From NCBI RefSeq assembly GCF_013466605.1, contig NZ_CP059162.1:434001-498000 (forward strand): a stretch of 64,000 bases of DNA, in the 5' to 3' direction. Shown here in pieces: positions 17,103 to 28,394 of this stretch. The notes below the pieces were generated by a model that saw nothing but the letters and a program-made list of their open reading frames with translations, did no database searches and had not been told where the DNA came from. The first letter of the stretch is position 1. The number at the start of each line of letters is the position of its first letter. Made by a program: the position numbers and the translations under genes. The stretch is from Pseudomonas chlororaphis subsp. aurantiaca. GTDB lineage: Bacteria > Pseudomonadota > Gammaproteobacteria > Pseudomonadales > Pseudomonadaceae.

Positions 17103-17129
17103 GGTTCAAGCACCCCGTCGTGTGTTATT

Positions 17130-17166
17130 TGTATATACATATACAGACGTTTGCCTGCTCGGTAAA
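17130..17166. promoter_or_regulatory. HutC-type operator and hutF promoter in the hutF-hutC gap
   Basis: TGTATATACA (17130-17139) is a perfect palindrome and continues as an alternating TATACA tract to 17146. On the minus strand a hutF promoter can be read: TTTACC (17166-17161), a 17-base spacer and TATATG (17143-17138), whose -10 box would overlap the palindrome. Its similarity to the palindrome before hutU supports binding by HutC. The site is well placed to control hutF and hutCD together. Confidence 0.7.
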
Positions 17167-19023: not shown

Positions 19024-20706
19024 GTGACTGAGAATAAACCTACGAAATACCGGAACGTCGAAATTCGCGCTGCCCGCGGCAACAAGCTGACCGCCAAGAG
19101 CTGGTTGACAGAAGCGCCGCTGCGCATGCTGATGAACAACCTCGATCCGGAAGTCGCCGAGAACCCGAAAGAACTGGTGGTCTACGGTGGCATCGGCCGC
19201 GCCGCGCGCAACTGGGAGTGCTACGACAAGATCGTCGAGAGCCTGACCAACCTGAATGACGACGAGACCCTGCTGGTGCAATCCGGCAAGCCGGTCGGCG
19301 TATTCAAGACCCACAGCAACGCACCGCGCGTGCTGATCGCCAACTCCAACCTGGTACCGCACTGGGCCACCTGGGAACACTTCAACGAACTGGATGCCAA
19401 GGGCCTGGCCATGTATGGCCAGATGACCGCCGGCAGCTGGATCTATATCGGCAGCCAGGGCATCGTCCAGGGCACCTACGAAACCTTCGTCGAAGCCGGT
19501 CGCCAGCACTACAACGATGACCTCAAGGGCCGCTGGGTCCTGACCGCCGGCCTCGGCGGCATGGGTGGCGCCCAGCCTCTGGCCGCGACCCTGGCCGGCG
19601 CCTGCTCGCTGAACATCGAATGCCAGCAGAGCAGCATCGATTTCCGCCTCAAGACCCGTTATGTCGACGAGCAGGCCAAAGACCTCGACGACGCCCTGGC
19701 GCGTATCGCCAAGTACACCGCCGAAGGCAAGGCGATCTCCATCGCCCTGTGCGGCAACGCGGCTGAAATCCTTCCGGAGATGGTCCGTCGCGGCGTGCGT
19801 CCGGACATGGTCACCGACCAGACCAGCGCCCACGACCCGCTCAACGGCTACCTGCCGGCCGGCTGGACCTGGGAGCAGTACCGCGAGCGCGCCAAGACCG
19901 AGCCGGCGGCGGTGGTCAAGGCGGCCAAGCAATCGATGGCTGTGCACGTCAAGGCCATGCTCGACTTCCAGAAACAGGGCATCCCGACCTTCGACTACGG
20001 CAACAACATCCGTCAGATGGCCCAGGAAGAAGGCGTCGAGAATGCCTTCGACTTCCCAGGCTTCGTACCGGCCTATATCCGTCCGCTGTTCTGCCGCGGC
20101 ATTGGTCCGTTCCGCTGGGCCGCGCTGTCGGGCGATCCGCAGGACATCTACAAGACCGACGCCAAGGTCAAGGAACTGATCCCGGACGACGCTCACCTGC
20201 ACAACTGGCTGGACATGGCGCGCGAGCGCATCAGCTTCCAGGGCCTGCCGGCGCGTATCTGCTGGGTTGGCCTGGGCCTGCGCGCCAAGCTCGGCCTGGC
20301 GTTCAACGAAATGGTACGCAGCGGCGAGCTGTCGGCGCCGATCGTCATCGGTCGCGACCACCTGGACTCCGGCTCGGTATCCAGCCCGAACCGCGAAACC
20401 GAATCGATGCAGGACGGTTCCGACGCCGTGTCCGACTGGCCGCTGCTCAACGCCCTGCTGAACACCGCCAGCGGCGCGACCTGGGTTTCCCTGCACCACG
20501 GCGGCGGCGTTGGCATGGGCTTCTCCCAGCACTCGGGGATGGTGATCGTCTGCGACGGTACCGACGAGGCGGCCGAGCGTATCGCCCGTGTGCTGCATAA
20601 CGACCCGGGTACCGGTGTCATGCGTCACGCCGATGCCGGTTACCAGATCGCCATCGACTGCGCCAAGGAACAGGGCCTGAACCTGCCGATGATCACTGGC
20701 AAGTAA
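19024..20706 (+). CDS. hutU: Urocanate hydratase (urocanase)
   Basis: HutU converts urocanate and water to 4-imidazolone-5-propionate using tightly bound NAD+ as an electrophile. The 560-residue length and the start sequence ([20 protein letters not shown]) are standard. The NAD-binding glycine-rich loop is in [17 protein letters not shown], and the C-terminal [20 protein letters not shown] block is highly conserved in urocanases. Translation starts with GTG behind GAGGAG. It is the first gene of a ten-gene rightward series ending at hutG, read from the sigma-54 promoter. Its substrate, urocanate, is also the inducer that releases HutC. Confidence 0.98.
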
Positions 20707-20823: not shown

Positions 20824-22287
20824 ATGTCCACGGCCAGCGATAGCTCCAAACCCCTGATCGAACGGCGCTCGATCAACTACATCCCCGAGGTCGAACGCCA
20901 CGGCAAGCTCTACAGCCAGTTCACCCTGTGGTTGGGGGCTAACCTGCAGATCACCGCCATCGTCACTGGCGCTCTGGCGGTGGTGCTGGGCGGCGATGTG
21001 TTCTGGTCGCTGATCGGCCTGCTCATCGGTCAACTGCTGGGCGGCGGCGTGATGGCGTTGCACGCGGCGCAGGGGCCCAAGCTCGGCCTGCCGCAGATGA
21101 TCTCCAGCCGGGTACAGTTCGGCGTCTACGGCGCGGCCATCCCGATCGTCCTGGTCTGCCTGATGTACCTGGGCTTCACGGCTACCGGCACCGTGCTTTC
21201 CGGCCAGGCGCTGGGCCAGCTGTTCGGCGTCAGCGACAGCGTCGGGATCCTGATCTTCGCCAGCGTCATCGTGCTGGTCACGGTGCTCGGCTACCGGGTG
21301 ATCCATTTCATCGGTCGCGCCGCCAGCGTCATTGGCGTGATCGCCTTCGTTTACCTGTTCAGTCGCCTGATGAGTCAGACCGACGTTGGCGCGCTCCTGG
21401 AAATCCGCCACTTCAGCTGGAGCAGCTTCCTGCTCGCGGTGTCGCTCGCTGCGTCCTGGCAGATCGCCTTCGGCCCCTATGTGGCGGACTATTCGCGCTA
21501 CCTGCCGAGCAAGACCTCCTCGGTGAAAACCTTCCTCGCCGCTGGCGCAGGTTCGGTGATCGGCGCGCAGGTGGCGATGATCCTCGGCGTGTTCGCCGCG
21601 GCCATGGCCGACGGGCAGTTCGCCGGTCACGAAGTGGCCTACATCGTCGGCCTGGGCGGCAGCGGTGCCACCGCCGCGCTGCTGTACTTCAGCATCGCCT
21701 TCGGCAAGGTCACCATCTCGACGCTGAACTCCTACGGCAGCTTCATGTGCATCGCCACCATCATCAGTGGCTTCCGTGGCCACCTGGAAGTGACGCGCCT
21801 GCAACGCCTGGCGTTCGTGCTGGTCATCGTCGGTACCGCGACCCTGATCGCGTTGCTCGGCCAACACTCGTTCCTCGGTGCGTTCAAGTCTTTCATCCTC
21901 TTCCTGCTGGCCTTCTTCACCCCGTGGAGCGCGGTCAACCTGGTGGACTACTACTGCATCACCCGCGAGCACTATGACGTGCCGGCGCTGGCCGATCCGA
22001 ACGGTCGCTATGGCCGCTGGAACATCCTCGGGATCAGCGTCTACGTGATCGGTGTGCTGGTACAGCTGCCGTTTATCGCCACCAAGTTCTACACCGGCCC
22101 GCTGGTGGAGGCTCTGGGGGGGGTGGATATCTCCTGGATCGTCGGCCTGGTGGTTCCCGCGGCGCTGTATTACGTCTGCGCGAAGAAATGGCATGGCGCT
22201 GTACCCGATCGCCTGATCCTGCCGGTAGAGCAGGACTCGATCACAGAACAAAAGCTGAGTGGGGCAGGCCGCGCTACTGCGGTCTAG
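20824..22287 (+). CDS. hutTu: NCS1-family permease, probable urocanate transporter
   Basis: A 487-residue inner-membrane transporter of the nucleobase:cation symporter-1 (cytosine/purine/allantoin permease) family with about 12 hydrophobic segments, for example WLGANLQITAIVTGALAVVL and SAVNLVDYYCITREHYDVPAL, the latter a typical NCS1 motif region. It lies directly after hutU in the operon. In P. fluorescens SBW25 the hut locus is reported to contain a urocanate-specific permease named HutTu; family and position fit, and I assign that role by inference. Substrate specificity cannot be read from sequence. The ATG at 20824 follows GGGAG; an alternative would be a histidine or nucleobase transporter. 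Confidence 0.75.
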   Translation: MSTASDSSKPLIERRSINYIPEVERHGKLYSQFTLWLGANLQITAIVTGALAVVLGGDVFWSLIGLLIGQLLGGGVMALHAAQGPKLGLPQMISSRVQFGVYGAAIPIVLVCLMYLGFTATGTVLSGQALGQLFGVSDSVGILIFASVIVLVTVLGYRVIHFIGRAASVIGVIAFVYLFSRLMSQTDVGALLEIRHFSWSSFLLAVSLAASWQIAFGPYVADYSRYLPSKTSSVKTFLAAGAGSVIGAQVAMILGVFAAAMADGQFAGHEVAYIVGLGGSGATAALLYFSIAFGKVTISTLNSYGSFMCIATIISGFRGHLEVTRLQRLAFVLVIVGTATLIALLGQHSFLGAFKSFILFLLAFFTPWSAVNLVDYYCITREHYDVPALADPNGRYGRWNILGISVYVIGVLVQLPFIATKFYTGPLVEALGGVDISWIVGLVVPAALYYVCAKKWHGAVPDRLILPVEQDSITEQKLSGAGRATAV

Positions 22288-22361: not shown

Positions 22362-23330
22362 ATGAAAATGAATAAGACCCTGCTGACCACTTTGCTTTCC
22401 ATGGGCCTGCTGGCCAGTGCCGGCGCTACCCAGGCGGCCGGCTGGTGCGAGTCCGGCAAACCGGTGAAATTCGCCGGCCTGAACTGGGAAAGCGGCATGT
22501 TGCTGACCGACGTGCTGCAAGTGGTCCTGGAAAAAGGCTACGGCTGCAAGACCGACAGCCTGCCAGGCAACTCCATCACCATGGAGAACGCCCTGAGCAG
22601 CAATGACATCCAGGTTTTCGCCGAGGAGTGGGTCGGCCGCAGCGAGGTCTGGAACAAGGCCGAGAAGGCCGGCAAGGTGGTCGGCGTCGGCGCCCCGGTC
22701 GTGGGCGCCATCGAAGGCTGGTACGTGCCGCGCTACGTGATCGAAGGCGATGCCAAGCGCAAGCTGGAAGCCAAGGCCCCGGACCTGAAGAACATCGCCG
22801 ACCTGGCCAAGTATTCCGCCGTGTTCAAGGACCCGGAAGAGCCGAGCAAGGGTCGTTTCTACAACTGCCCGGCCGGCTGGACCTGCGAGCTGGACAACAG
22901 CGAGATGCTGAAAAGCTACGGCCTGGAAAGCAGCTACACCAACTTCCGCCCAGGCACCGGCCCGGCGCTGGATGCCGCAGTGCTGTCGAGCTACAAGCGT
23001 GGCGAACCGATCCTGTTCTACTACTGGTCGCCAACCCCGCTGATGGGCCAGGTCGACCTGGTGAAGCTGGAAGAGAAGCCGGGCGTGGACAAGAGCGTGA
23101 CCATCAAGGTCGGCCTGTCCAAGACCTTCCACGAGGAAGCGCCTGAGCTGGTGGCCGTGCTGGAAAAGGTCAACCTGCCGATCGACCTGCTGAACCAGAA
23201 CCTGGGCCGCATGGCGAAGGAACGTATCGAATCGCCGAAACTGGCGAAAATCTTTCTCAAGGAACATCCTGAAGTCTGGCACGCATGGGTGAGCGACGAC
23301 GCAGCCAAGAAAATCGACGCGGCCTTGTAG
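22362..23330 (+). CDS. hutX: ABC transporter substrate-binding protein HutX (OpuAC/ProX type)
   Basis: This 322-residue periplasmic protein has a signal peptide (cleavage after about residue 25, ...GATQAA) and the glycine-betaine/ProX-like OpuAC fold, seen in VKFAGLNWESGMLLTDVLQ and the aromatic-rich EEWVGRSEVW and FYYWSPTPLMG segments that form the ligand cage. With HutW and HutV downstream it forms an import system; in this genomic position it is expected to bind histidine. Start ATG at 22362 follows GGGAG; the frame extends upstream into the permease gene but without a plausible start. It shows no sign of decay. Confidence 0.88.
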   Translation: MKMNKTLLTTLLSMGLLASAGATQAAGWCESGKPVKFAGLNWESGMLLTDVLQVVLEKGYGCKTDSLPGNSITMENALSSNDIQVFAEEWVGRSEVWNKAEKAGKVVGVGAPVVGAIEGWYVPRYVIEGDAKRKLEAKAPDLKNIADLAKYSAVFKDPEEPSKGRFYNCPAGWTCELDNSEMLKSYGLESSYTNFRPGTGPALDAAVLSSYKRGEPILFYYWSPTPLMGQVDLVKLEEKPGVDKSVTIKVGLSKTFHEEAPELVAVLEKVNLPIDLLNQNLGRMAKERIESPKLAKIFLKEHPEVWHAWVSDDAAKKIDAAL

Positions 23331-23401
23331 GTAGAGCCTTTCCGGCTGCCTGAACGGTAGCCGGGAGCCTTGCCGCAACCCACTTGATCGAGAATCTCTC
23401 T

Positions 23402-24253
23402 ATGTTTCCTGAAAGCTTCACGTTTTCCATCGCCGACTGGGTCAACGGTTGGGTCGATTCGCTGGTAACCAACTACGGCGATGTGTTCCGCCACATCTCC
23501 GACACCCTGCTGTGGGCCATCGTCAACCTCGAAGGCCTGCTGCGCCTGGCGCCCTGGTGGCTGATGCTGGCGATCGTCGGCGGCATCGCCTGGCATTCGA
23601 CCCGCAAGCTGGTGACCACCGCGGTGATCGTCGGCCTGCTGTTCCTGGTGGGCGCGGTCGGCCTGTGGGACAAGCTGATGCAGACCCTGGCCCTGATGCT
23701 GGTGGCGACCTTCATTTCGGTGCTGATCGGCATTCCCCTGGGCATTCTCTCGGCGCGCAGCAATCGCCTGCGTTCGGTGCTGATGCCGCTCTTGGACATA
23801 ATGCAGACCATGCCGAGCTTCGTGTACCTGATCCCGGTGCTGATGCTGTTCGGCCTGGGCAAGGTGCCGGCGATCTTCGCCACCGTGATCTATGCCGCGC
23901 CGCCGTTGATCCGCCTGACCGACCTGGGCATCCGCCAGGTCGACGGCGAGGTCATGGAAGCGATCAACGCCTTCGGTGCCAACCGCTGGCAGCAACTGTT
24001 CGGCGTGCAACTGCCGCTGGCCCTGCCGAGCATCATGGCCGGGATCAACCAGACCACCATGATGGCCCTGTCGATGGTGGTAATCGCCTCGATGATCGGT
24101 GCCCGTGGCCTGGGCGAAGACGTGCTGGTGGGGATCCAGACCCTCAACGTCGGCCGTGGCCTGGAAGCCGGACTGGCGATCGTGATTCTGGCCGTGGTCA
24201 TCGACCGTATTACCCAAGCCTATGGTCGTCCACGCCATGAGGTGAGCAAATGA
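23402..24253 (+). CDS. hutW: ABC transporter permease HutW (ProW type)
   Basis: A 283-residue inner-membrane permease of the glycine-betaine/proline class with six or seven hydrophobic segments and the EAA loop EAINAFGANRWQQLFGVQLP that docks on the ATPase. The first 70 residues form an amphipathic N-terminal extension (FPESFTFSIADWVNGWVDSLV) of the kind seen in ProW proteins. The ATG at 23402 is chosen over an upstream TTG. Its 3' end overlaps hutV by four bases (ATGA), indicating translational coupling. It partners with HutX and HutV in histidine uptake, by context. Confidence 0.88.
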   Translation: MFPESFTFSIADWVNGWVDSLVTNYGDVFRHISDTLLWAIVNLEGLLRLAPWWLMLAIVGGIAWHSTRKLVTTAVIVGLLFLVGAVGLWDKLMQTLALMLVATFISVLIGIPLGILSARSNRLRSVLMPLLDIMQTMPSFVYLIPVLMLFGLGKVPAIFATVIYAAPPLIRLTDLGIRQVDGEVMEAINAFGANRWQQLFGVQLPLALPSIMAGINQTTMMALSMVVIASMIGARGLGEDVLVGIQTLNVGRGLEAGLAIVILAVVIDRITQAYGRPRHEVSK

Positions 24254-25080
24254 ACAACGCAACCGTGAGCAAGATCGAAGTCAAGAATGTCTTCAAGATT
24301 TTCGGCAACCGTTCGGCCGACGCGCTGAACATGATTCGCCAGAACAAGACCAAAGACCAGGTGCTGGCCGAGACCGGCTGCGTGGTCGGGGTCAACGACC
24401 TGTCGCTGAGCATCGGCACCGGCGAGATCTTCGTGATCATGGGCCTGTCCGGTTCCGGCAAGTCGACCCTGGTGCGCCACTTCAACCGCCTGATCGACCC
24501 GACCAGCGGCGCGATCCTGGTGGACGGCGTGGACATCCTGCAATACGACATGGATGCCCTGCGCGAATTTCGCCGGCACAAGATCAGCATGGTGTTCCAG
24601 AGCTTCGGCCTGCTGCCGCACAAGACCGTGCAGGAAAACGTCGCCTACGGTCTCAAGGTGCGTGGCGAGAGCAAGGAAGTCTGCGCCGAGCGCGCGCTGC
24701 ACTGGATCAATACCGTGGGCCTCAAGGGCTACGAGGCCAAGTACCCGCACCAGTTGTCCGGCGGCATGCGCCAGCGCGTCGGCCTGGCCCGCGCCCTGGC
24801 GGCGGACACCGACATCATCCTGATGGACGAGGCCTTCAGTGCTCTCGACCCGCTGATCCGCGCCGAGATGCAGGACCAGTTGCTGGAGCTGCAAAAGACC
24901 CTGCACAAGACCATCGTCTTCATTACCCACGACCTCGACGAGGCCGTGCGCATCGGCAACCGCATCGCGATCCTCAAGGATGGCCGGCTGATCCAGGTCG
25001 GCACGCCGAAAGAGATCCTGCATTCGCCGGCGGACGAGTATGTCGACCGTTTCGTGCAGCGGCGCGCGGCGGTGGTTTAA
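24250..25080 (+). CDS. hutV: ABC transporter ATP-binding protein HutV (ProV type)
   Basis: A 276-residue ATPase with Walker A GLSGSGKST (residues 65-73), signature LSGGMRQRVGLARAL, Walker B IILMDEAFSALDPL and the H-loop FITHDLDEA. The N-terminal KNVFKIFGNRSADAL and the insert before Walker A are those of ProV-like proteins. It lacks the C-terminal CBS domains of osmosensing ProV proteins, which fits a nutrient importer. Its start overlaps hutW. A single family B repeat lies between its stop codon and hutH1. Confidence 0.9.
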   Translation: MNNATVSKIEVKNVFKIFGNRSADALNMIRQNKTKDQVLAETGCVVGVNDLSLSIGTGEIFVIMGLSGSGKSTLVRHFNRLIDPTSGAILVDGVDILQYDMDALREFRRHKISMVFQSFGLLPHKTVQENVAYGLKVRGESKEVCAERALHWINTVGLKGYEAKYPHQLSGGMRQRVGLARALAADTDIILMDEAFSALDPLIRAEMQDQLLELQKTLHKTIVFITHDLDEAVRIGNRIAILKDGRLIQVGTPKEILHSPADEYVDRFVQRRAAVV

Positions 25081-25179: not shown

Positions 25180-26703
25180 ATGTCGCAGGCTGAAAAAATC
25201 GTTATCGCCGACGCCCGGTTGCGTTGGCAGGATGTGGTCGCCGTAGCCCGGCATGGCGCGCAGCTCGAGCTGTCGGCCCAGGCCTGGGCGCGCATCGAGA
25301 ATGCCCAGGCCATCGTCCAGCGCATCGTCGCCAGCGGCGAACGCGCCTATGGCATCAATACCGGCCTGGGCGCGCTGTGCAACGTTTCGCTGCAGGACGA
25401 ACAGCTCAGCCAGCTGTCGCGCAACACCTTGCTCAGCCATGCCTGTGGCGTGGGTGCGCCGCTGGCCGACGAGCAGACCCGGGCGATCATCTGCGCTGCC
25501 ATCGTCAACTACAGCCACGGCAAGTCCGGCCTGCATCGCCGGGTGGTCGAGGCGCTGCTGGCCCTGCTCAATCGCGGTATCACCCCGCAGGTGCCGTCCC
25601 AGGGTTCGGTGGGTTATTTGACCCACATGGCCCATATCAGCATCGCCTTGCTCGGTGTCGGCCAGGTCAGCTATCGCGGGCAGGTCGTATCGGCCGAGCA
25701 GGCGCTGGCGGCGGAAGGCCTGCAGCCGGTGCAACTGGGGGCCAAGGACGGTCTGTGCCTGGTCAACGGTACGCCGTGCATGACCGGCCTGAGCTGCCTG
25801 GCCCTGGCCGATGCCACGCGCCTGCTGCAATGGGCCGACGTGATCGGCGCCATGAGCTTCGAGGCGCAGCGCGGGCAGATCGCTGCGTTCGATGCCGAGA
25901 TCATCGCGCTCAAGCCGCACCCGGGCATGCAGCAGGTCGGCATCAACCTGCGCGCCTTGCTCGACGGCAGCGAAGTGATTGCCGCCAGCAAAGGCATCCG
26001 CACCCAGGATGCCCTGAGTATCCGCTCCATCCCGCAGGTTCACGGCGCCGCCCGCGATCAGTTGGCGCACGCGACGCAACAGGTCGAAACCGAACTCAAC
26101 TCCGTCACCGATAACCCGATGGTGCTGGGCACTCCGGACAACTACCGGGTGATGTCCCAGGCCAACCCCCACGGCCAGTCGGTGGCGTTGGCGGCGGACC
26201 TGCTGGCGATCGCCATGGCCGAGATCGGCTCGATCGCCGAGCGGCGCCTGGATCGCTTGATCAACCCCCATGTCAGCGGTTTGCCGGCGTTCCTGGTGAG
26301 CAACCCCGGGGTCAACTCCGGAATGATGATCGTCCAGTACGTCGCTGCCTCGCTGTGCGCGGAGAACCGCCAGCTGGCGCAACCGGCGGTGCTGGACAAC
26401 TACGTCACCTCCGGCCTGCAGGAAGACCACCTGAGCCTGGGCACCAATGCCGCGCTGAAGCTTTCCCGCGTGCTGGAAAACTGCACCCAGATCCTCGCCA
26501 TCGAATACCTGCTGGCGGCCCAGGCCTTCGAGTTTCTCAAGGAACAGCGTTTCGGTGCCGGCACCGATGCGGCCTGGAAGCTGCTGCGCCAGCGGGTTGC
26601 GGCCTATGACCAGGACCGCTGGCTGGCCCCGGACATCGCCAGCACGGCGGCGCTGCTCAAGGCTCCAGCCTTGCTGCAGGAGGTTTTACCGGGCGTGTGC
26701 TGA
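25180..26703 (+). CDS. hutH1: HutH1: histidase-like protein lacking the MIO triad (probable pseudoenzyme)
   Basis: This 507-residue protein has the full histidine/phenylalanine ammonia-lyase fold, with YGINTGLGALCNV near the N-terminus (Tyr57), LVNGTPCMTG, VETELNSVTDNPM and the C-terminal LQEDHLSLG. At the place where histidases carry [12 protein letters not shown], whose Ala-Ser-Gly cyclises to the MIO electrophile, it reads GSVGYLTHMAHI: Y146-L147-T148. The catalytic-site tyrosine of QDPYSLR is also lost (QDALSIR). It therefore should not form MIO and should not deaminate histidine. The gene is intact, with normal codon usage. ATG at 25180 follows GAGG at seven bases; two upstream GTG codons are less likely. 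It may bind histidine or urocanate, partner with HutH2, or regulate. Confidence 0.9.
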   Translation: MSQAEKIVIADARLRWQDVVAVARHGAQLELSAQAWARIENAQAIVQRIVASGERAYGINTGLGALCNVSLQDEQLSQLSRNTLLSHACGVGAPLADEQTRAIICAAIVNYSHGKSGLHRRVVEALLALLNRGITPQVPSQGSVGYLTHMAHISIALLGVGQVSYRGQVVSAEQALAAEGLQPVQLGAKDGLCLVNGTPCMTGLSCLALADATRLLQWADVIGAMSFEAQRGQIAAFDAEIIALKPHPGMQQVGINLRALLDGSEVIAASKGIRTQDALSIRSIPQVHGAARDQLAHATQQVETELNSVTDNPMVLGTPDNYRVMSQANPHGQSVALAADLLAIAMAEIGSIAERRLDRLINPHVSGLPAFLVSNPGVNSGMMIVQYVAASLCAENRQLAQPAVLDNYVTSGLQEDHLSLGTNAALKLSRVLENCTQILAIEYLLAAQAFEFLKEQRFGAGTDAAWKLLRQRVAAYDQDRWLAPDIASTAALLKAPALLQEVLPGVC

Positions 26704-26861: not shown

Positions 26862-28394
26862 GTGACTGCGCTAAATCTGATTCCCGGCCAACTGACCCTG
26901 GCCCAGCTGCGTGCCGTCTACCAACAGCCGGTAACCCTCAGCCTCGATGACAGTGCATCGAAGCAGATCGACGCCAGCGTCGCCTGCGTCGAGCAGATCC
27001 TCGCCGAGAACCGCACCGCCTACGGCATCAACACCGGTTTCGGCCTGCTGGCCTCGACCCGTATCGCCAGCGCAGACCTGGAAAACCTCCAGCGCTCCCT
27101 GGTGCTGTCCCATGCCGCCGGTGTCGGCGAGCCGATCAGCGACGCCTTGGTGCGCCTGATCATGGTGCTCAAGGTCAACAGCCTGAGCCGTGGTTTTTCC
27201 GGTATCCGCCGCCAGGTGATCGACGCGCTGATCGCCCTGGTCAACGCCGAGGTCTATCCGCATATCCCGCTCAAGGGCTCGGTGGGCGCTTCCGGCGACC
27301 TCGCGCCGCTGGCGCACATGTCCCTGGTGCTGCTGGGTGAAGGCAAGGCCCGTTACAAAGGCCAATGGCTGAACGCCACCGAAGCCCTGAGCGTGGCCGG
27401 CCTCAAGCCGCTGACCCTGGCGGCCAAGGAAGGCCTGGCGCTGCTCAACGGCACCCAGGTGTCCACCGCTTTTGCCCTGCGCGGCCTGTTCGAAGGCGAA
27501 GACCTGTTCGCCGGCGCCCTGGCCTGTGGCGGCCTGACCGTCGAGGCAGTGCTGGGCTCGCGTTCGCCGTTCGATGCGCGGATTCATGCCGCCCGTGGCC
27601 AGAAAGGCCAGATCGATGCCGCCGCGGCTTACCGCGACCTGCTGGGCGACAGCAGCGAAGTCTCCAAGTCGCACCAGAACTGCGACAAGGTGCAGGACCC
27701 GTACTCCCTGCGCTGCCAGCCACAGGTCATGGGCGCCTGCCTGACCCAGTTCCGCCAGGCCGCCGAGGTGCTGGTGATCGAAGCCAACGCCGTGTCGGAT
27801 AACCCGCTGGTGTTCGCCGCCGAGGGCGACGTGATCTCCGGTGGCAACTTCCACGCCGAGCCGGTGGCCATGGCCGCCGACAACATGGCCCTGGCCATCG
27901 CCGAAATCGGTTCCCTGAGCGAACGCCGCATCTCGCTGATGATGGACAAGCATATGTCCCAACTGCCGCCGTTCCTGGTGGCCAATGGCGGGGTCAACTC
28001 CGGCTTCATGATCGCCCAGGTGACCGCCGCGGCCCTGGCCAGCGAAAACAAGGCGCTGTCCCATCCGCACTCGGTGGACAGCCTGCCGACTTCCGCCAAC
28101 CAGGAAGACCATGTTTCCATGGCGCCCGCCGCTGGCAAGCGCCTGTGGGAAATGGCCGAAAACACCCGTGGCATCCTCGCCGTGGAATGGCTGGCGGCCT
28201 GCCAGGGCCTGGACCTGCGTGACGGCCTGAAGACCTCGACCAAGCTGGAAAAGGCCCGCGCTACCCTGCGTAGCAAAGTGCCGTTCTACGAGAAGGACCG
28301 CTTCTTCGCCCCGGACATCAACGCCGCGAGCGAACTGCTGGCGTCCCGTTGCCTGAATGAGCTGCTGCCGGCCAAGTTGCTGCCGAGCCTGTAA
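26862..28394 (+). CDS. hutH: Histidine ammonia-lyase (HutH2)
   Basis: HutH removes ammonia from L-histidine to give urocanate, the first step of the pathway. The 510-residue protein carries the intact MIO triad A143-S144-G145 in [14 protein letters not shown], the Tyr54 in [31 protein letters not shown] and QEDHVSMA, so all canonical active-site elements are present. Translation starts at GTG 26862, preceded by AAAGGAG. Two bases earlier an ATG is followed at once by TGA. It is 158 bases after hutH1 and is clearly the working histidase of the cluster. Similarity to hutH1 is that of ancient paralogues, not a recent duplication. Confidence 0.98.

Follow-up and report, generated by a model that had tools for sequence, protein, structure and literature searches.

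HutH1, a histidase-fold protein without the MIO site in proteobacterial hut loci, as a putative hercynine trimethylamine-lyase

In canonical histidine ammonia-lyase (HAL), some active-site residues provide the base and the contacts to the imidazole and the carboxylate of the substrate, and others serve the activation of the amine. A second lyase of this fold is the ergothionase of Treponema denticola (PDB 6s7j and 6s7q), which, according to the accessible text of PMC13405746, has no MIO and releases trimethylamine; its substrate bears a 2-thione, unlike hercynine (N,N,N-trimethylhistidine), the compound proposed below for HutH1. Here we analysed a window (the whole stretch of DNA under study, 64,000 nucleotides) from Pseudomonas chlororaphis subsp. 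aurantiaca that carries hut genes for both HutH1 and a canonical histidase, HutH2. The 6.95 Mb genome (one contig) encodes three PF00221 proteins, namely HutH1, HutH2 and a third copy (G000:533962-535359) with the Ala-Ser-Gly (ASG) triad and the segment QDRYSLR, which we take to be TAL/PAL-like; it was rejected as a relative of HutH1. Such TAL/PAL-like lyases share the PF00221 fold with HutH1, but they have kept ASG and have Gln at position 414 in 6/6 rows of our alignment.

From gene order, we take the first enzyme gene listed in Table 1 to be hutU. The only PDB relative of HutX at E ≤ 1e-10 is 7yle, a glycine betaine/proline-binding protein. The hutTu-like gene product is 52% identical to an NCS1 permease encoded 3' of hutH1 on an Erwinia plasmid; HutTu is a urocanate transporter according to the accessible text of PMC12977541.

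Table 1 Features of the hut region, in window coordinates
Feature	Position	Strand	Remarks
HutC-type operator TTGTATATACAT	17129..17140	.	match to consensus TGTA-N2-TACA
HutC-type operator TTGTATGTACAA	18877..18888	.	5' of hutU; match to consensus TGTA-N2-TACA
hutU	19024..20706	+	urocanate hydratase, proposed user of the HutH1 product; ORF
hutTu-like gene	20824..22287	+	NCS1 (cytosine-permease family) transporter; PF02133; presumed orthologue
hutX	22362..23330	+	OpuAC-type substrate-binding protein of a betaine-class ABC importer; PF04069, 209 bits
hutW	23384..24253	+	ABC permease; PF00528
hutV	24250..25080	+	ABC ATPase, directly 5' of hutH1; PF00005
hutH1	25180..26703	+	507 aa, MIO-less histidase-fold protein, putative lyase; translation, PF00221 558 bits, clade membership
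hutH1 product, proposed name	25180..26703	+	hercynine (histidine betaine) trimethylamine-lyase, putative
Tyr57 (HAL Tyr53)	25348..25350	+	proposed catalytic base; Tyr in 31/31 HutH1-clade, 31/31 HAL and 3/3 ergothionase-like rows
His87 (HAL His83)	25438..25440	+	retained in 31/31 clade rows
GSVGYLTHMAH (142-152)	25603..25635	+	remodelled MIO site; ASG missing in 31/31 clade rows
Tyr146 codon	25615-25617	+	within GSVGYLTHMAH
QDALSIR (276-282)	26005..26025	+	Gln277 and Arg283 equivalents retained; HAL Tyr280 replaced by Leu279
SQANPHG (326-332)	26155..26175	+	SGGNFHA in HutH2; HAL Phe329 replaced by Pro330
QED (414-416)	26419..26427	+	includes HAL Glu414 equivalent; Glu in 31/31 clade rows
hutH2	26862..28394	+	canonical MIO histidase; QDPYSLR; TIGR01225 736.9 bits, cut-off 539.15

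Active site and fold of HutH1

The hutH1 frame is uninterrupted over 507 residues and its stop codon, and the translation contains Tyr57, the NGT loop, the QED segment and QDALSIR. The first-pass annotation had described the protein in just this way, as an intact histidase-fold protein of 507 codons without the MIO triad beside a HutH2 that is normal at the active site, and the translations, with the canonical triad and QDPYSLR in HutH2, bear it out. It had also read Tyr-Leu-Thr as taking the place of Ala-Ser-Gly. The loss of the triad stands, but not the simple swap, since across 72 aligned rows HAL Ala142 is matched by Tyr146, and Ser143, Gly144 and Asp145 face a three-residue gap that is common to all 31 HutH1-clade rows. 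The ASG triad is absent from each of these rows and present in 31/31 HAL rows; MIO formation from the HutH1 sequence is predicted to be impossible.

Tyr53, His83, Asn195, Gln277, Arg283 and Glu414 (HAL numbering) are invariant in the 31 rows of the HutH1 clade. Position 280 is Leu in all of them and in 3/3 ergothionase-like rows, compared with Tyr in 31/31 HAL rows, and the position of Phe329 is occupied by Pro (26/31) or Ala (5/31). If the residue roles of P. putida HAL apply, the kept residues presumably take the beta proton and hold the imidazole and the carboxylate, and the lost ones presumably serve the departure of ammonia. Canonical HAL (P. putida 1b8f and HutH2 of the window) shares with HutH1 the fold, the base, the substrate-side residues and the hut-operon context, whereas it has the MIO triad and Tyr280, belongs to a separate tree group and has other transporter neighbours.

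The AlphaFold2 model of HutH1 has a mean pLDDT of 89.1, with residues 405-422 below 50. In Foldseek, P. putida HAL is its best PDB match (TM-score 0.92, 41% identity) and ergothionase 6s7j ranks 13th (TM-score 0.90, 28% identity); phmmer likewise ranks histidase above ergothionase. Like HutH1, ergothionase has the histidase fold, has lost ASG and MIO, carries Leu in place of Tyr280 (QDPLSFR in 6s7j) and retains Tyr53, Gln277, Arg283 and Glu414. The gap in its MIO loop, however, comprises one residue instead of three, and it retains Phe329 but has changed equivalents of Asn195 and His330, whereas HutH1 has kept Asn195 and lost Phe329. That HutH1 would be catalytically impossible, as had been stated from the missing triad, does not follow, as ergothionase is a lyase of the same fold that is described as MIO-less in the accessible text of PMC13405746.

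The NCBIfam HutH equivalog TIGR01225 accepts HutH1 with 548.7 bits (cut-off 539.15), and 4/4 other clade members tested fall under the cut-off; the model does not cleanly separate the HAL and HutH1 clades. Adding an Ala-Ser-Gly requirement to it would set the MIO-less proteins apart. Among the matches listed (the best 120 of 7437), HutH1 homologues mostly carry the name histidine ammonia-lyase where the source gives one.

Distribution, phylogeny and selection

YLTHM and QDALS were found together in 120/120 listed homologues (the best 120 of 7437 matches in the protein search), and GSVGYL[T/S/A]HMAH with QDALS in 80/80 genome loci (72 T, 6 S and 2 A at the third position), so that a sequencing artefact or chance as the source of the changed MIO site was rejected. 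The 80 loci head a list of 562 stretches that tblastn confirmed, ordered by how closely they resemble a Salinicola protein; not all 562 need be of the HutH1 type. The 80 come from Pseudomonas, Halomonadaceae, Zobellella, Oceanimonas, Corticimicrobacter, Serratia and one gammaproteobacterial MAG. A genome search with a DNA pattern that detects exact YLTHM forms only found the motif in 12/390 genomes of an order sample and 13/398 genomes of an overlapping phylum sample; in the order sample, 6/12 genomes of the genus Pseudomonas carry it. Relatives of HutH1 are also encoded on plasmids of Erwinia (70% identity) and of Burkholderia and Rhizobiaceae (52-54%), and the core GYLTH is common to the six plasmid-borne proteins that we read.

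IQ-TREE recovered three separate groups: the 31 HutH1 rows (support 100/99), the 31 HAL rows (100/97), and a set (100/100) in which 6s7j is joined by ergothionase-like proteins from Salinicola corii (L047) and from L140. This unrooted tree, with its long ergothionase branches, does not prove how many times MIO was lost. HutH1 belongs to an old, separate and deep clade that spans alpha-, beta- and gammaproteobacteria. The protein had been called a paralogue inside the operon; its position in the operon is right, but the deep separate groups led us to reject a recent or within-operon duplication of HutH2. Caballeronia L139 has retained ASG and was rejected, and of eight weak PF00221 matches of the class that were considered as ergothionase candidates, seven have ASG and one (L131) Thr-Ser-Gly.

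The clade is under purifying selection. Median dN/dS was 0.138 for HutH1 (1587 of 1711 pairs among 59 Pseudomonas sequences, 124 pairs being removed by dS limits; sequences from the window and from loci L067-L126, L081 and L124 excepted) and 0.084 for HutH2 (741/741 pairs, 39 sequences from Pseudomonas loci). The earlier view of HutH1 as a retained gene is upheld by this value, and a pseudogene or decaying paralogue was rejected on the same median and on the invariance of Tyr53 and Arg283.

Transporters, hut genes and operators around hutH1

A transporter of a quaternary-ammonium type is the nearest detected gene 5' of hutH1 in 79/80 loci, counting genes on the same strand, within 500 bases and detectable with our query set: 58 loci have an OpuA-type ABC importer, with the HutV-type ATPase adjoining hutH1, and 21 a BCCT transporter (confirmed by Pfam in 6/6 tested cases); HutU takes this place in the remaining one. 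Because all OpuA cases are from Pseudomonas and one Serratia, they represent few independent events. In one genome (G365), the BCCT gene is positioned between HutU and HutH1. Neither transporter type was found within up to 9 kb per side of 20 canonical HAL loci from other gammaproteobacteria, several of which end at contig ends, or beside HAL in the six genomes examined where both lyases occur (0/6 canonical loci, one of them, L195, ending at a contig end); in 3/6 of these within-genome controls a PAAT-type importer lies near HAL.

Some other clade members are paired differently. Those of Burkholderia, Rhizobium, Sinorhizobium, Erwinia and G900 have as partner an importer of the PAAT type (SBP family 3), which is usual for ordinary amino acids, and no transporter was found directly 5' of the Aminobacter clade member (L142). 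Since OpuA-type Hut transporters can also carry histidine, as in S. meliloti, hutX need not imply a betaine. In Sinorhizobium sp. B11, a gene annotated as solA (N-methyl-L-tryptophan oxidase; L130:10501-11631) lies 3' of the hutH1-type gene, perhaps for N-methylated substrates.

In the stretches examined, 68/80 loci have an ordinary HutU, 76-98% identical to that of the window, and 56/80 a canonical HutH2, which is directly 3' of hutH1 in 46/80. In P. fluorescens SBW25, hutH2 alone is reportedly needed for growth on histidine. Six Pseudomonas loci, presumably of the P. putida group, have stand-alone hutXWV-hutH1 units with no other hut genes detected within up to 10 kb per side. In the genomes of S. 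corii, S. acroporae, S. lusitanus and Corticimicrobacter populi, on the other hand, HutH1 stands beside HutU and HutI, and a canonical HAL was not found; the S. corii genome (G494, same coordinates) scored 100% complete. HutH1 is the only hut-linked candidate source of urocanate in these four genomes, and its product is probably urocanate. On a different contig, the three Salinicola genomes encode a TAL/PAL-like lyase that has ASG, a possible other source of histidase activity that counts against hercynine as the substrate of HutH1; from its tree group and Gln at 414 in the S. corii copy, this lyase would not be a histidase.

Two loci tie the HutH1 family to histidine betaines. In S. corii, a second MIO-less lyase (L047:13993-15528) adjoins the hut operon and groups with ergothionase in the tree, its best solved relative (268 bits); two HutC-type operators lie 5' of the gene and OpuAC-type transporter genes 3', which suggests that the breakdown of ergothioneine and hercynine is co-regulated in this species. 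On plasmid pAtA6 of A. tumefaciens A6, a HutH1-clade member is the last gene of an operon that also encodes a Zn-hydrolase, an amidohydrolase, a molybdopterin S/N-oxide reductase, a homologue of urocanate hydratase (48% to HutU) and proteins of the ProX/W/V type, of which the binding protein shares 50% identity with HutX. As a lead only, this operon may be compared with the ergothioneine sulfonate pathway of Agrobacterium radiobacter cited in the accessible text of PMC13405746.

Further MIO-less lyases were seen on other plasmids. One on A. tumefaciens pAt15-1187-1-2a1 (L141:3818-5365; GSVGYLIATS, QDALSLR), which shares its operon with genes for an ABC importer, a CoA transferase, a 3-hydroxyacyl-CoA dehydrogenase and an enoyl-CoA hydratase, perhaps acts on another amino-acid betaine. 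Another, on S. meliloti pSymA (L140:3797-5437; GSVGQADMTLL, QDPLSFR), is ergothionase-like and has an apparent signal peptide.

Sites resembling the HutC consensus TGTA-N2-TACA (accessible text of PMC12977541), of which chance would give 0 to 0.4 in a whole locus when ≤2 mismatches are allowed, precede several units of transporter and hutH1 that have no hut enzyme genes beside them: in Erwinia L127, 79 bases 5' of the first gene; in Burkholderia L128, at 102 bases with one core mismatch; in Halomonas L066, 127 bases 5' of the first ATG of the BCCT frame; and in Halomonas L064, with two sites. The Burkholderia, Rhizobium and Sinorhizobium units adjoin hutC. No such operator was found within 400 bases 5' of hutX in the six stand-alone Pseudomonas units, or directly 5' of the transporter-hutH1 genes in Serratia, Rhizobium, Sinorhizobium, Aminobacter and A. 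tumefaciens A6. The operator pattern gives partial support to a urocanate/HutC link of the hutH1 units.

Proposed reaction, competing explanations and meaning

On this comparative evidence, it is highly probable that HutH1 is an MIO-independent lyase acting on a histidine derivative of some kind, and we consider it probable that this derivative is hercynine, which would be cleaved to urocanate and trimethylamine and so feed HutU. The quaternary-ammonium importer (HutXWV in the window, BCCT in other lineages) would take up hercynine, and HutH1 would hold its imidazole and carboxylate with the same residues as histidase. Tyr57 would abstract the beta proton, and trimethylamine would then leave. 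Histidase needs an electrophile to activate the free amino group, whereas HutH1 would need none because its leaving group is already quaternary. The urocanate formed would be passed to HutU, and so into the ordinary hut pathway, and would act through HutC as an inducer of hut as well. A main contrary fact is the presence of PAAT importers in part of the clade.

An ergothionase-like role on a sulfur betaine (ergothioneine or ergothioneine sulfonate) instead of hercynine is unlikely. It would fit the A. tumefaciens A6 operon, which resembles an ergothioneine-type catabolic operon, and the A. radiobacter ergothioneine sulfonate pathway cited in PMC13405746 (accessible text); however, 68/80 loci have an ordinary HutU, the S. 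corii HutH1 has a distinct gene of the ergothionase-like type as its neighbour, and HAL Asn195, kept in HutH1, is replaced in the 3 ergothionase-like rows.

About as unlikely is that HutH1 takes another leaving group off another modified histidine (for example N-methyl, N-hydroxy or acylated), still with urocanate as the product. The conserved imidazole and carboxylate side and the link to HutU would suit any histidine derivative, and the solA-annotated gene of Sinorhizobium B11 and the PAAT-type importers of some clade members point in the same direction, but two unrelated families of quaternary-ammonium transporters are nearest 5' in 79/80 loci.

That HutH1 deaminates L-histidine itself without MIO is very unlikely. 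It is the sole hut-linked lyase in four HutU-positive genomes without canonical HAL, and TIGR01225 accepts the window protein; yet an amino group leaves poorly unless it is activated, for which the family needs MIO, MIO and Tyr280 were lost together in 31/31 rows, and 56/80 loci also carry a canonical HutH2. Least credible is that HutH1 serves HutH2 without catalysis, as its partner, buffer or regulator, the kind of role (binding, hetero-oligomer or regulation) that the first-pass annotation had mainly favoured over its other option of a different reaction, which our data prefer. Although the cofactor is lost, hutH2 is directly 3' in 46/80 loci and HAL-type enzymes are tetramers with active sites built from several subunits, HutH1 persists with HutU in four genomes that lack any canonical histidase as a possible partner or target of regulation, occurs elsewhere without neighbouring hut genes, keeps Tyr53 and the substrate-side residues invariant in 31/31 rows and travels with its own transporters.

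Gene labels in P. aeruginosa PAO1 bear on the hercynine reaction. In the accessible text of PMC12772324, PA5093 is labelled hutG and PA5092 hutI, and a 'hutG' mutant had a growth defect on histidine and urocanate; HutTh is PA5097 and HutTu PA5099 in that of PMC12977541. Because in relatives (e.g. L067 and L071) hutI is directly 3' of hutH1, with hutG following at the downstream side, PA5093 would by gene order be hutH1. If the mutant is truly in PA5093, its defect speaks against hercynine as the substrate; if it is in the deformylase gene, it has no bearing.

We found no description of a hercynine lyase or of hercynine catabolism in the open-access literature covered, which does not establish absence from print. 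It is somewhat more plausible than the opposite that hercynine trimethylamine-lyases are an overlooked class, a betaine entrance to the hut pathway in many Proteobacteria, which would have lost MIO separately from ergothionase, been paired with two unrelated importer families, been tied to the urocanate/HutC regulon, and replaced histidase in Salinicola and Corticimicrobacter. If so, hut in these two genera would serve betaine breakdown, the name histidine ammonia-lyase would be wrong for many of the proteins that now bear it, and the NCBI equivalog annotation of a protein without the catalytic cofactor would be corrected. The two hutH genes of many Pseudomonas would be explained. Hercynine, the precursor of ergothioneine according to the accessible text of PMC7653990, would be joined to core catabolism and to trimethylamine release. 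An apparently 'broken' enzyme of the histidase fold would then work on a pre-activated substrate, with a parallel change of Tyr280 to Leu in a separate lineage.
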